Origin: Mycobacterium sp.
GTDB lineage: Bacteria; Actinomycetota; Actinomycetes; RYN-182
Direction of reading: 5' to 3'
NCBI GenBank assembly: GCA_025965515.1
Contig: JAOPWU010000029.1
Coordinates: 1 to 33,588, forward strand
Length of the DNA stretch: 33,588 nucleotides
The position numbers were made by a program, and so were the translations under genes. The notes below the pieces were generated by a model. The model saw only the letters and a program-made list of their open reading frames with translations, was not told the DNA's origin and searched no databases. How positions within the stretch are numbered: position 1 is the stretch's first letter; every line of letters begins with the position of its first letter. This document shows positions 23,205-27,914 of this stretch, in pieces.

Positions 23205-25079
23205 ATGGCGGACCGCGGACGACGAGGGGGTCCGGGGGCCGCGGGACGCGACGCGGTCGTGGCCCGCGTACGTCGTCGCCGGGGGATCGCCCGTCCGGTC
23301 GTGGCCCGGCCCCGGGTCGTGGCCGTGACGACGGCGGTGCTCTTCACCGTCGCGGGCCTCCTCGCGCTCGCCGCGACGCTCCTGTCACCCGGCGACTTCG
23401 CCAACCTGCCCGCGGTCCGCGCGCTGGCCGTGACCGCGGTGGCCACGGGCGTCGTCACGGCCTGTTTCCGCAACCGGTTCCCCGTCCGAGCGGCCCATGG
23501 CCTGGTGACTGCCGGCACGGCGCTGATCACCGTGGCGGTGCACATGACCGCCCACTCGCCCACGTCGGTCGCCCTCGCGTCCCTGTACGTCCTCATCGCG
23601 GTCGACAGCGCCTTCTTCTTCTCGTGGCCTGCCGCGGTGGGGCACCTGACCGTCGCGACGGTCGGCGGCGGGGTGGTGCTGTGGTCGGACCACGACGTCG
23701 GCGCCGGGCCCAGCCTCGTGGTGGCCGGCACCGCGGTGCTCGTGGCGGGCGTGGTGGCCTGGTTGGTCCGGGCCGCTGGGGCCGCCGATACGGACGCCCT
23801 CACCGGGCTGCCGAACCGCCGGGGACTCGACCGGCTGCTCGACGACGCCATCACGGTGGCCGAGCGCTCCGGGGCCCCCCTGACCCTGGCGGTCATCGAC
23901 CTCGACCACTTCAAGGCGGTCAACGACAGCGCCGGTCACCAGGGCGGCGACCTGCTGCTCATCCGCACCGCGCACGCGTGGGCCGCGCTGCTCGGACCGG
24001 GCCAGTCACTGGCCCGGCTCGGCGGCGACGAGTTCGTCGTGCTGCTTCCCGGCACCGGCCTCGAGACCGCGCTCGGGGTGGTGCAGCGCCTGCGCGGCGT
24101 GGTGCCGGACGGGCGCACCTGCTCGGTCGGCGTCGCCGAGCGGCACCCCGACGACGCGTCCTCCCTGCTGTCCAGCGCGGACGCGGCGCTGTACGAGGCC
24201 AAGCGGGCTGGCCGCGACTGCGTCCGGCACCACGGGCACACGGCCGCGGTCCGGACCGAGGTCCGCGGTGCGCTGGCACGGGGCGAGATCGTCGTGCACT
24301 ACCAGCGGGTGGTCGACCTGGCCACGGGCCGCACGGCCGGGACGGAGGCCCTCGTCCGTTGGCAGCACCCGGAACGCGGGCTCGTTCCGCCCGGTGACTT
24401 CCTGCCGCTGCTCGAGGGCTCGACCCTGCTGGCCGACGTCGGCCGGTTCGTACTGACCGAGGCCTGCGCGCAGACCGCGGCCTGGCGGCGCGACGGCAGC
24501 GAGGTGACGGTGGCCGTGAACGTGGCAGGGGAGCAGCTGCTCGACCCGGGCTACGCCGAGCAGCTCGCCGAGATCCTCGCCGCGACGGGGCTGCCGGCGG
24601 CCGCGCTGGTGCTGGAGGTGACCGAGTCGTCCCTCGACGCGGACACCGCTCTGGCGCAGCGGACCCTCGAGGCCGTGCGGGCGCTCGGGGTGGGCATCGC
24701 CGTGGACGACTTCGGCACCGGGTACTCGAGTCTGGCCCGGCTGGGGCGGCTCCCCGTGGACCTCCTGAAGATCGACCGCTCCTTCGTCGTGGCCGTCCCG
24801 GAGGGGGCCACCGAGGCGCCCATGATCCAGGCGATCACCGCGATGGCGGCCGCGCTGGGGCTCGAGGTGGTCGCCGAGGGCGTGGAGGACGAGGGCCGTG
24901 CCCGCCTGCTCCGGAGGCTGGGGTGCGGCTACGCCCAGGGGTACCTCTTCGGCCGGGCCGTCCCGTCGGCGGAGCTCGACCTGCTGGGGGTCGCGGCGGT
25001 CGAGGACCACGGCGGCGCTCCGCGGCTGCCGGCGCAGCGCCGGCTGGCGGTCGGACCGGACCTGCGCCTGCCCCGCTGA
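23205..25079 (+). CDS. Membrane-bound GGDEF-EAL protein (c-di-GMP synthesis/hydrolysis)
   Basis: 624 residues. The ATG at 23205 has no strong ribosome-binding site, so the start is uncertain. An Arg-rich N-terminus is followed by about five or six membrane segments (residues 40-195). The GGDEF domain has DALTGLPNRRG, DLDHFKAVND and an intact GGDEF (273-277). The inhibitory RxxD site five residues before it is absent. The EAL domain has EALVRW (381-386), NVAGEQL, DDFGTGYSS, KIDRSF, VAEGVED and GYLFG, all key metal and catalytic residues. Both activities are therefore plausible, and the net direction cannot be predicted. The stop codon touches the left end of the inverted-repeat element. Confidence 0.93.
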   Translation: MADRGRRGGPGAAGRDAVVARVRRRRGIARPVVARPRVVAVTTAVLFTVAGLLALAATLLSPGDFANLPAVRALAVTAVATGVVTACFRNRFPVRAAHGLVTAGTALITVAVHMTAHSPTSVALASLYVLIAVDSAFFFSWPAAVGHLTVATVGGGVVLWSDHDVGAGPSLVVAGTAVLVAGVVAWLVRAAGAADTDALTGLPNRRGLDRLLDDAITVAERSGAPLTLAVIDLDHFKAVNDSAGHQGGDLLLIRTAHAWAALLGPGQSLARLGGDEFVVLLPGTGLETALGVVQRLRGVVPDGRTCSVGVAERHPDDASSLLSSADAALYEAKRAGRDCVRHHGHTAAVRTEVRGALARGEIVVHYQRVVDLATGRTAGTEALVRWQHPERGLVPPGDFLPLLEGSTLLADVGRFVLTEACAQTAAWRRDGSEVTVAVNVAGEQLLDPGYAEQLAEILAATGLPAAALVLEVTESSLDADTALAQRTLEAVRALGVGIAVDDFGTGYSSLARLGRLPVDLLKIDRSFVVAVPEGATEAPMIQAITAMAAALGLEVVAEGVEDEGRARLLRRLGCGYAQGYLFGRAVPSAELDLLGVAAVEDHGGAPRLPAQRRLAVGPDLRLPR

Positions 25080-25125
25080 GGGCGCCCTGGGTACGGCTAA
25101 TGAGGGTGATCGCATCGGGCTAACT
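25079..25125 (+). repeat. Left terminal inverted repeat
   Basis: Starts AGGGCGCCCTGGGTACGGCT and ends ATCGGGCTAACT. It aligns with the complement of 26166-26211, with two substitutions in the first part and a small indel block near position 32. The outermost ten bases form a perfect palindrome. Confidence 0.85.
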
Positions 25126-25184
25126 GTTCGTCGCGGACTCGCTCAGAAGGCGGCTTCAGGGACGGTCTGAAAGGACACGTGCCT

Positions 25185-25493
25185 CTACGGCAAATCCTGA
25201 GCGGCGAGGCGCTGAAGGATGCCGACCAGGTGTTGTAGGTCGTGCCAGGTGGAGACGATCTGGTCGGGTCGGAGGATCTCGTCCAGCGTGGCGATGTCGT
25301 CCGAGAGTTGCCCGATCGTGAAATCGGGCTCCTTCGGCGTCTCATAGACCTCATACGTCGCCCGTGGGTTCAGCGCCCAGTAGTGGTCAGCCGAGAGCGA
25401 GATGCTGTCGCCCTGTTCGGCCTGCACAGCCGTGAGCACACGGTCAAGGGCCAGACGCAGCTTGTCCATCGGTACTGACAACGGATCCTTCAT
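25185..25493 (-). CDS. Hypothetical cargo protein of the inverted-repeat element
   Basis: 102 residues from ATG 25493 to TAG. I do not recognise the family. It is acidic and helical, with no membrane segment or signal peptide (MKDPLSVPMDKLRLALDRVL, then SADHYWALNPRATYEVYE, ending WHDLQHLVGILQRLAAQDLP). The composition looks like a soluble domain that could bind a partner. Codon use is less GC-biased than in neighbouring genes, in keeping with acquired DNA. It lies 163 bases downstream of the GPGGG-repeat gene on the same strand, so the two may be co-transcribed. It shows no transposase or resolvase motif (no DDE, HUH or serine-recombinase signature). Confidence 0.7.
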   Translation of the reverse strand: MKDPLSVPMDKLRLALDRVLTAVQAEQGDSISLSADHYWALNPRATYEVYETPKEPDFTIGQLSDDIATLDEILRPDQIVSTWHDLQHLVGILQRLAAQDLP

Positions 25494-25656
25494 GGGCGAC
25501 TTGCTACCAGCAATCGGTCCGGTCGCTGCAGCGCGCCCTCCTACGCGCGAACGTGTCCCTGAATGGGCCGCTCAGAGCGCCAGTCCTACTTGCGTCCCTC
25601 GAGGCGAAGAACCGCCGCGCAGGTGATCGTCACGGCCGCGAGAACGAAAAGGGGTG
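25494..25656. other. 163-base spacer between the two cargo genes
   Basis: No gene is supported. A minus-strand frame ends here with a hydrophobic stretch (PLLTPLFVLAAVTITCAAVL), but it has no start codon of its own and upstream it only shadows the repeat gene. No convincing promoter was seen. Confidence 0.4.
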
Positions 25657-26019
25657 TTAGTAGCGGGACAGTAGGTCGGCGACGCTGTCCATGCCCCGGC
25701 GACGCAGTTCTCTGATCAAGACGTCTCTTGGTGGCTGGTTGCTCCGGTACGTGTTCTTGCCAGAGCTCGTCGACAGTCCGCCCCCGGGCCCGGTGGAAAG
25801 GCCACCGCCGGGTCCGGTCGACAGTCCGCCCCCAGGCCCGGTGGAAAGGCCACCGCCGGGACCGGTCGACATGCCACCGCCAGGCCCGGTCGACATGCCA
25901 CCGCCAGGCCCGGTCGACGCCCCACCGCCGGGACCGGTGGAAAGGCCACCGCCGGGACCGGTGGAGAGGCCACCGCCTGGGCCAGTCGAACGATTGCGTG
26001 GCCACCCCTTGCTCTGCAT
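25657..26019 (-). CDS. GPGGG tandem-repeat protein
   Basis: 120 residues from ATG 26019. It begins MQSKGWPRNR, followed by nine copies of the eight-residue unit STGPGGG(L/M/A) (residues 11-82), then a charged tail NTYRSNQPPRDVLIRELRRRGMDSVADLLSRY. The repeats are Gly/Pro-rich and probably extended or disordered; the tail looks like an amphipathic helix. I recall similar GPGGG-repeat small proteins with a RELxRRG tail in other actinomycetes, with no known function. The DNA repeat is 24 bases long, so copy number may vary between strains. It lies inside the inverted-repeat element. No signal peptide is seen. Confidence 0.8.
   Translation of the reverse strand: MQSKGWPRNRSTGPGGGLSTGPGGGLSTGPGGGASTGPGGGMSTGPGGGMSTGPGGGLSTGPGGGLSTGPGGGLSTGPGGGLSTSSGKNTYRSNQPPRDVLIRELRRRGMDSVADLLSRY
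25774..25989 (-). repeat. 24-bp tandem repeat, nine copies, inside the GPGGG gene
   Basis: Nine consecutive 24-base units encode STGPGGGx. On the plus strand they read as GGACCGGTGGAAAGGCCACC-like units with GTCGAC or GTGGAA variants. The period is a multiple of three without stop codons in several frames, which explains the clutter of overlapping track ORFs here. Confidence 0.9.
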
Positions 26020-26078
26020 GGCCGCAGGCTATTGCCGGGGACCGACAGTTTCGGCGTAACGGTTGGGAAAGTCGCGCT

Positions 26079-26089
26079 AGGGCGCCCTG
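26079..26089 (+). repeat. Third copy of the AGGGCGCCCTG end motif, internal
   Basis: AGGGCGCCCTG, identical to the two outer copies at 25079-25089 and 26202-26212. It precedes the inner inverted-repeat arm CCCTGAAGGGCCGCTTAGGG and could mark an older or nested end, or a transposase-binding site. Confidence 0.6.
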
Positions 26090-26165
26090 AAGGGCCGCTT
26101 AGGGCGAGTTTCGCGGGCTCCCGGGCCAGACGTCCTGGCCGCATCTCGGGCGGTCGCATCCGCGG

Positions 26166-26211
26166 AGTTAGCCCGATCTGTCACCCTCATTTGCCGTACT
26201 CAGGGCGCCCT
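26166..26211 (-). repeat. Right terminal inverted repeat
   Basis: Read on the minus strand from 26211 it begins AGGGCGCCCTGAGTACGGCA and ends ATCGGGCTAACT, matching the left end. Confidence 0.85.
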
Positions 26212-26228: not shown

Positions 26229-27914
26229 CTAGCGGCGTGCCCGGGGCCGGCGGGGGGACCGGGGCGTGGGAACGGCAGGGTTCAGCGGCGGGGCGAGGAC
26301 GGCACGGCCGTCGCAGGCCTTCTTGGCGAGGTACATCGCCGCGTCGGCGGCGGCGATGAGCTGCGGCGCCGTCGCGACCAGCGGAGGGGTCCACGCGACC
26401 CCGAGGCTGGCTGCGATGCCGGTGGCACCGGCCAGCCCTGCGGCCCGCGCGAGGGCGTCCGCGAAGCGTTGCGCCACCCTGCGGGCGGCCTCGGCCGAGT
26501 GGACGTCCAGGCACGCGACCAGGTACTCGTCGCCACCCAGTCGGCCGACGGCGTCACGGTCGCGGCAGCTGGCGCGCAGCACGTCGGCGACGCGGCAGAG
26601 GAGCTCGTCGCCGGCCTGGTGGCCGAGCGTGTCGTTGATCTGCTTGAAGCCGTCGAGGTCGATGAACACCGCGGCCACGCCTCGGCCGGCCCGGCCGAGG
26701 GCGCCCTCGAGCGTCTCCAGCACCGCCGCCCGGTTGAACGAGCCCGTGAGCGGGTCGATGCGGGCGCGCTCCTGCAGCTGACGCCGCAGCTCGAGGCTGT
26801 CGGTCACGTCGTTGAAGCAGGCGACCGCGCCGGTCGTGACGGAGCCCTCGTCCAGGCGCCGCACCACGACGGACAGGTGGGTGACCTTCTCGGGGCAGGG
26901 CAGTGCCGCCTCGGTCTCGCCGCCGGCGGCGCCGTCGAGCACGCTGGTGAAGCAGCTGCGCACCCGGGCCGCGTCGTCGGCAGGGAGCCCGGCGACCACG
27001 CTGTCGATGCTGTCGAGTTCCGGGCCGAACAGCGTGAGCGCCTGGCTGTTCGCGTAGACCACCCGCCCGTCGGCCGCGGTCTGCACGACGCCGACGGGGA
27101 GGGACTCGGCGAGCCGGTCGAGCAGCTGCTCGCGGGCACGGAGCGCCTCGTGGGCGGCCATCTCTTCGCTGATGTCGACCATTTCGCAGAGCACGTGGCC
27201 GCGCTCCTCCAGCAGGTTGTGGTTCGTCAGCTCGAACCAGGCCCAGCTGCCGTCCTTGCAGGCGTGCCGGAGCCGGACGCGCCGGCCCAGCCCGGGCGCT
27301 GCGAGCATCTCGACCCAGCTGGCGACCGCGAGTTCCTGGTCGTCGGGGTGCACGAAGTCGCTGGAGCGGTGTCCGATGAGTTCGTCGGGGGACCAGCCGA
27401 GCAGTTGCGAGAGGGCCTCGTCGACTTCCGTGATGACCGCGATCTGGTCCTTGACCACGCGGGCGAGGCGCGGCCGCGCCGGCGCGCCGGCGGCGGCCTG
27501 CTCGCGGTCGGAGGTCTGGTCCGTGGTCGGGACCGAGACGGCGAGGAAGCAGCCGCAGGACGGCCGCGCGTCCATCATGTGGAGGATCCAAGCGCCGCCG
27601 GCGGGGTCCTCGACGAGGTGCACGACCACCGAGGCGGCGCCGGTGCGGGTGGTCGCGTCCCACGCCTCGATGACGGCGGCCCGGTCCGCCGGGGCGACGC
27701 TGTCGAGGGCGGTTTTGCCGACGAGGATCCGGCGCTGCGGGTTCGGGACACCTGTGAGCTCCGCGAGCTTCTCCGGAAGCGGCAGGAGGAAGCCGACGTC
27801 CGAGATCGCCGAGACCCGGGCCTGCGGGTCGGCCAGCAACGTCCGGAGCGCGGTCCAGAGCGTGTCGTGCTCGCGCTCGTCGGCCGTCTCGACTGTGGCG
27901 CTGTCCGGATGCAT
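26229..27914 (-). CDS. PAS-GGDEF diguanylate cyclase
   Basis: 561 residues. The ATG is preceded by a perfect AAAGGAGGT. An N-terminal PAS-like region (about 20-125, FLLPLPEKLAELTGVP) is followed by a second PAS (about 150-255) with PDELIGHRSSDFVHPDD and a PAC-type segment RLRHACKDGSWAWFELTNHNL. A third PAS follows (about 265-380, LPVGVVQTAADGRVVYANSQALTLFG). The GGDEF domain has DPLTGSFNRAAV, DLDGFKQINDTLGHQAGDE and GGDEY (460-464). The product-inhibition site RDRD (R451-D454) lies five residues before it. It is therefore a soluble, feedback-inhibited c-di-GMP synthase with sensory input. CGCF near residue 120 may bind a metal or be redox active, which is speculative. It converges on the GGDEF-EAL gene. 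Confidence 0.94.
   Translation of the reverse strand: MHPDSATVETADEREHDTLWTALRTLLADPQARVSAISDVGFLLPLPEKLAELTGVPNPQRRILVGKTALDSVAPADRAAVIEAWDATTRTGAASVVVHLVEDPAGGAWILHMMDARPSCGCFLAVSVPTTDQTSDREQAAAGAPARPRLARVVKDQIAVITEVDEALSQLLGWSPDELIGHRSSDFVHPDDQELAVASWVEMLAAPGLGRRVRLRHACKDGSWAWFELTNHNLLEERGHVLCEMVDISEEMAAHEALRAREQLLDRLAESLPVGVVQTAADGRVVYANSQALTLFGPELDSIDSVVAGLPADDAARVRSCFTSVLDGAAGGETEAALPCPEKVTHLSVVVRRLDEGSVTTGAVACFNDVTDSLELRRQLQERARIDPLTGSFNRAAVLETLEGALGRAGRGVAAVFIDLDGFKQINDTLGHQAGDELLCRVADVLRASCRDRDAVGRLGGDEYLVACLDVHSAEAARRVAQRFADALARAAGLAGATGIAASLGVAWTPPLVATAPQLIAAADAAMYLAKKACDGRAVLAPPLNPAVPTPRSPRRPRARR

Follow-up and report, generated by a model that had tools for sequence, protein, structure and literature searches.

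A transposase-less gene cassette in a Mycobacterium sp. and a putative DDE-type family of passenger-gene transposons centred on Geodermatophilaceae

Examination of a 33,588-nucleotide stretch of Mycobacterium sp. DNA (GenBank assembly GCA_025965515.1, contig JAOPWU010000029.1, positions 1 to 33,588; this whole stretch is termed the window) points to a transposase-less mobile gene cassette of 1,113 bp at positions 25089..26201 (no strand assigned), in which two passenger genes lie between terminal inverted repeats and a direct repeat flanks the whole. We propose, with a probability of about 0.78, that this element is a non-autonomous DDE-type transposon of passenger genes and one of a family centred on the Geodermatophilaceae. 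Judged from its sequence, it is in kind a mobile insertion cassette, like those of the IS231/IS4 group in Bacillus cereus and similar cassettes in Xanthomonas and on qnr plasmids (PMC2266710, PMC6542083, PMC3913671, PMC5444012), with which it shares inverted ends, passenger genes in place of a transposase, a target duplication (here 10/10) and presumed movement in trans. It belongs to what appears to be a previously unrecognised family, in which the ends and the candidate enzyme are new, as are the target and the arrays; no description of such a system was found in the open-access literature.

Ends of the window element and their copies in other genomes

The preliminary description of this region had reported inverted ends of about 46 bases. 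The inverted arms are real: compared with each other, 25079-25125 and 26166-26211 are inverted copies with 89% identity (E 3.6e-9), and a chance origin is excluded because the window contains two copies of the 19-mer GTACGGCWAATGAGGGTGA, whereas shuffled sequences average 0.01. Their length was inflated, since each arm had been counted with its outermost 10 bases, AGGGCGCCCT, which form a direct repeat but, being perfectly palindromic, resemble part of an inverted repeat. The terminal inverted repeats proper measure 36-37 bp and comprise GGGTACGGCTAATGAGGGTGATCGCATCGGGCTAACT on the left (25089..25125, + strand) and, read from the outer end inward, GAGTACGGCAAATGAGGGTGACAGATCGGGCTAACT on the right (26166..26201, - strand). 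The direct repeat, with its left copy at 25079..25088 and its right copy at 26202..26211 (both + strand, 10/10 identical), corresponds to the expected target duplication of the element. The left copy begins with the A of the TGA that stops the upstream gene, and its 8-bp core is GGGCGCCC (25080-25087); if the duplication is taken as 8 bp, the element extends over 25088-26202. Both the terminal repeats and the duplication are intact, and the G+C content of the element is 66% against 75% in the flanks. Further inverted similarity inside the ends, also noted in the preliminary description, was borne out: the conserved left end module, consisting of the terminal repeat and a subterminal region (25089..25167, + strand), contains the subterminal motif GGCGGCTTCAGGG at 25149, and the conserved right end module (26092..26201, - strand) has a similar motif, GGCCGCTTAGGGC, at 26093. 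A weaker inverted copy of the motif lies between the two passenger genes (25557..25569, - strand) and is a possible relic of two fused cassettes.

No second copy of these ends, here called A-type, was found in the window genome. A scan of a genome collection with an 18-base end core recovered a contig of Geodermatophilus ruber with two convergent copies, and more ends in metagenome-assembled genomes (MAGs) of actinomycetes. Homology between the window element and one G. ruber element is confined to the end modules, the right one matching over about 110 bp (93%) and the left one matching the other end over 81 bp (89%); beyond the element boundary it does not continue, and the two have no cargo in common. 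G. ruber carries 14 A-type ends (up to 3 mismatches), divided equally between the strands (seven each), and the reversed control pattern has no match there. Among 112 Geodermatophilaceae genomes, A-type ends occur in 21 and a related B-type end, GAGTTCGGCAGCAAGRTGA, in 20, with few matches for the reversed control patterns. At up to 1 mismatch, A-type ends were absent from 392 other Actinomycetes sampled; given that this class-wide sample matched the window genome only, they are taxonomically narrow. Searches of viral contigs and plasmids with the ends gave nothing above chance.

Several copies also occur within single genomes. In one, two 93%-identical copies of one unit (L090 and L092) have unrelated flanks, and in another (G417) miniature B-type elements of 238-317 bp with perfect 10-bp duplications lie on one large contig (L141 5511-5750, L142 5453-5769 and L144 5234-5471). 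The miniature copy at L142 provides the stop codons of two convergent genes. As a separate observation, a third end type, CCCCCTTACGGTGAAAGTGTGATG, marks the borders of more small elements, which lie nested amid ends of the A and B types (L059 4566-4906; L095 8748 and 10515; L023 3965-4687 and 4952-5555).

The inverted repeat could instead be fortuitous or serve another function, for example as two terminators around two native genes, and its palindromic outermost 10 bp do adjoin a GC-rich host hairpin. However, besides the excess over shuffles, the same end modules surround other genes in other genomes and the homology ends at the boundary, so that these copies already refute it and we give it practically no weight. 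The preliminary description had also named what would tell against mobility, namely no copies of the ends anywhere and the same genes fixed at the locus without them; the ends do recur, as in G. ruber. Its suggestion of a mobile insertion cassette moved in trans gains support from the recurrence of the same ends with different cargo and target duplications, and from larger elements with related ends that carry a transposase-like gene.

Target site, arrays and cargo across the family

Neighbouring convergent ends were paired blind to their flanks (n=32), with left and right flanks cross-paired between different elements as the control. At least 8 of 10 flanking bases are identical in 26 of the 32 pairs, compared with 2.3% in the cross-paired control. 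Mismatches in the 10-mers occupy 12 of 52 cells at positions 1 and 10 and 5 of 208 at the inner eight, and this clustering at the outer positions favours an 8-bp duplication. The true duplication is probably 8 bp and the target TCA-N8-TGA, with inferred ends that start with TGAG and finish with CTCA. Furthermore, at 15 of 64 solo ends the junction exactly forms the TGA stop of a predicted gene, whereas no other offset gives more than 2, and hence insertions tend to fall behind genes and to restore their stop.

The elements frequently abut in tandem, with an identical spacer at every junction. Examples are AGCTCGTGGY (three times, L055), ACCCGGCGAT (three times, L089), AGCCGGTGCY (L094), AGGAGCAGCT (L106), and AGGTTCTTCT with its variants (four times, L088). 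An array in a Streptosporangiaceae MAG (JAOPYH010000112.1; L023 2272-6416) is made up of five cassettes or more, whose ends are of two or three kinds and which share the spacer CCCTCTGG; it carries genes for metallo-beta-lactamase-fold, cupin, isochorismatase and F420-reductase-like proteins. Across the family the cargo is mostly a single intact gene per unit, and includes epoxide hydrolase, mycothiol-S-transferase (DinB), glyoxalase, methyltransferase, GNAT, alpha/beta hydrolase, SnoaL, isochorismatase, cupin, metallo-beta-lactamase fold, F420-dependent reductase, RibD_C, SGL and alcohol dehydrogenase, as well as a sulfatase with its maturase. A 4.4-kb unit with A-type ends in G. ruber (L053 3897-8310) encodes an arylsulfatase, the formylglycine-generating enzyme that goes with it, and a membrane protein; the functional pair is complete as cargo, and a matching duplication is absent.

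Such arrays resemble integron cassettes in their small metabolic and detoxification genes, mostly one per unit and in tandem. They raise the alternative of a site-specific cassette system, integron- or SCC-like, in which a tyrosine or serine recombinase would act at imperfect palindromic sites (arm, spacer, arm) with the 8-10-bp spacer as the recombination core; the palindromic array junctions (CCGTACTC-N10-GAGTACGG), the single spacer along each array, the tandem units and the integron-like cargo would all fit this. However, the spacers vary freely between sites and yet agree between the two ends of any one solo unit, the pattern expected of a staggered-cut duplication. Moreover, a unit is bounded by two inverted ends and a duplication rather than carrying a single site, in contrast to the integron cassette with its single IntI-recognised attC site, and the autonomous relatives discussed below encode a DDE-like protein and an exonuclease, with no recombinase among their genes by Pfam. 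No integrase was recognised in the arrays read, the gene for IntI not having been searched for genome-wide. Taken together, these features make recombinase-driven exchange a rather poor candidate beside transposition by a DDE-type enzyme.

Several features set the family apart from the mobile insertion cassettes described earlier: its ends and candidate transposase are new, its target TCA-N8-TGA overlaps stop codons, the subterminal modules are long and asymmetric, different cassettes stand in tandem arrays with one shared spacer, and the cargo is of the single-enzyme kind typical of integrons.

Candidate mobilisers

The preliminary description had called for a full-length element with the same ends and a transposase. 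What was found are two larger elements with related rather than exact ends. The first, of 4,375 bp, has B-type ends and a 9/10 duplication (L140 5831-10205, G415:C1); the second, of 4,581 bp, has D-type ends (GACCTCGGCAGGGGGTGTTGAT) and a 10/10 duplication (L088 1097-5677, G421:C16), and shares its array with an A-type cassette whose spacer is near-identical. Both encode a DDE-like protein (665 and 577 residues respectively, 44% identical) together with an overlapping gene for a DEDDh exonuclease, whose products match RNase_T (E 4e-13 and 3e-18). Their third genes differ; the D-type element also carries a TPR gene. The DDE-like protein has conserved acidic residues (D, D, E), conserved N-terminal Cys/His residues, and the conserved motifs LLLDDxPVY, VVADAGxG, PSxWH and GNIERTN. 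On these grounds the elements are likely mobilisers of the cassettes, and we infer that this protein family would also move those with A-type ends; since the ends of the larger elements are of the B and D types, this assumes either cross-mobilisation or an A-type relative that was not seen.

In their behaviour the DDE-like elements would be comparable to transposons of the Mutator/IS256 type (p-MULT), for which inverted repeats of 18-39 bp, direct repeats of 8-9 bp and a C/D(2)H signature 11-19 residues after the second aspartate have been described (PMC3942029). The terminal repeats of 36-37 bp and the favoured 8-bp duplication fall within these ranges, and gene-sparing insertion is likewise shared with this group and with plant Pack-MULEs. 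The candidate transposase also has the order D-D-E, an xxH after the second aspartate, and NIERxN resembling the NxxERxN of the aligned IS256 proteins. On the other hand, where the signature has C/D(2)H at 11-19 residues after the second aspartate, the protein has S(2)H at 23 residues after it (D436); the family further differs from Mutator elements and Pack-MULEs in having a partner DEDDh exonuclease and in carrying intact genes instead of gene fragments. The motif Y(2)R(3)E(6)K (YREK), which defines the IS4/IS231 family (PMC2266710), is absent from both DDE-like proteins. Because the profile match is non-significant, the C/D(2)H signature is lacking and YREK is absent, we liken the family to a Mutator/IS256-type transposon in the way it would work but do not file it there.

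Several points weigh against the proposed DDE-type family and its mobiliser. The likely assignment of the DDE-like protein as a transposase draws on its position and its conserved D, D and E residues; the protein has no match in Pfam, NCBIfam or the PDB, was found in no plasmids or viral contigs, and among PHROGs reaches a weak match (E 0.02) to a family of unknown function. In hhalign comparisons with four IS256-family transposases the region of the second aspartate aligns at a non-significant E of 0.11, with 0.28 for an IS701 control. An autonomous element with exact A-type ends was not found, and the autonomous relatives have the related B and D ends (GAGTTCGGC and GACCTCGGC). A clean duplication is wanting in 6 of the 32 end pairs, and the window target itself, TGA-N8-TGC, is two bases off the consensus TCA-N8-TGA. 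The window locus offers no empty site for comparison. The genomes themselves display end pairs, subterminal modules, duplications, the target motif, stop-codon restoration, arrays and cargo exchange; movement was not observed.

Some of these points would also suit the view that the 4.4-4.6-kb elements are merely larger cassettes and that an unrelated transposase encoded elsewhere moves all of them. The DDE-like protein matches no known transposase, and among 13 genomes searched directly only two elements with the DDE-like and exonuclease genes were found, whereas cassettes are common. However, two elements with differing ends and third genes both contain the gene pair (44% identity), its acidic residues and N-terminal Cys/His are conserved, and no other plausible enzyme was seen in any of the units read. 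We consider this view unlikely, if still deserving of attention, and favour the DDE-like protein as the mobiliser.

Passengers of the window element and the proposed mechanism

The contents of the window element are as the preliminary description gave them, with no transposase-like open reading frame (ORF) inside. Passenger gene 1 (25185..25493, - strand) encodes a 102-residue protein to which no function is assigned, and passenger gene 2 (25657..26019, - strand) a 120-residue protein with STGPGGG repeats and a C-terminal domain (..YRSNxPP..V.I..LRxRGxD..ADLL..). Family and profile searches gave no convincing match for either. The 102-residue protein was found in no viral contigs, and its single-sequence fold prediction was unusable (pLDDT, the predicted local distance difference test score, of 53). 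The cargo is less unusual than had been thought: relatives of the 102-residue protein (35% identity) are passengers on two Streptomyces plasmids, where they lie within an IS701-family element of about 1.83 kb beside its transposase (L018 2514-4350, NZ_CP108139; L019 2514-4350, NZ_CP108231). The earlier suggestion that GPGGG-repeat genes are spread by such elements found no backing, as the window's gene is alone in lying inside one: a full-length relative in another actinomycete (locus L004, G019:C59), the one true relative examined, has no such ends flanking it, and an apparent B-type end near that gene was rejected as a four-mismatch chance match. At the same locus the GPGGG-repeat gene (1400-1770) adjoins an ORF (about 1880-2400) that by eye resembles a TIR-domain protein. 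Both window genes are passengers, and no general tie of GPGGG genes to the cassette family emerged.

The Streptomyces elements bear on a further alternative, in which the window element is a decayed remnant, or an ordinary miniature inverted-repeat transposable element of a known insertion sequence (IS701, IS4/IS231 or IS256) that captured two genes. In its favour, the relative of the 102-residue protein rides in IS701-family elements, and IS231-type elements are known for passenger genes (PMC2266710). However, the Streptomyces elements have their own transposase, a CTAG flank and ends (TAGTACTCCAGTGCGG) unrelated to those of the cassettes, YREK is absent from the candidate transposase, and the window ends and duplication show no decay; this alternative is accordingly a slim one. 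IS701 was dropped as the mover of the window element, whose ends differ and which has no transposase inside.

The host genes on both sides are intact. Upstream lies a gene for a 624-residue GGDEF/EAL protein (23205..25079, + strand), whose TGA stop (25077-25079) abuts the insertion; the insertion point falls exactly at this stop codon and a terminator-like hairpin of the same gene (GCCCCGC..GCGGGGGGC). Downstream is a convergent gene for a 561-residue GGDEF/PAS-like protein (26229..27914, - strand). The domain names of both were assigned by eye.

In light of these observations, we propose tentatively, at slightly below even odds, that an undescribed DDE-type family, consisting of the DDE-like protein and the DEDDh exonuclease, serves Geodermatophilaceae and some other actinomycetes in placing intact single-gene cassettes into TCA-N8-TGA stop-codon sites, with stop and target rebuilt each time, giving open-ended arrays and an integron-like sharing of genes without an integron integrase. 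The DDE-like transposase would bind the terminal inverted repeats and subterminal repeats of a cassette in trans, excise or copy it, and have it joined to the target with an 8-bp stagger, with the exonuclease possibly contributing to end processing or gap repair. As the ends would begin with TGA and finish with TCA, each insertion could restore the stop of the gene ahead and make the next target, and arrays would grow by repeated insertion at such re-created targets. In the window, a two-gene cassette would have landed at the stop and terminator-like hairpin of the GGDEF/EAL gene and left that gene unbroken; because the genome has no second copy, the probable origin is horizontal acquisition or persistence after loss of the mobiliser.

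Integrons are the textbook route to arrays of single-gene cassettes. If the proposal is true, the DDE family would be a second, independent route, harmless in that it acts at stop codons. A new candidate transposase, paired with an exonuclease, would come with it, and possibly a tool for insertion behind genes. It would also explain the scattered metabolic and detoxification genes of soil and rock-dwelling actinobacteria.

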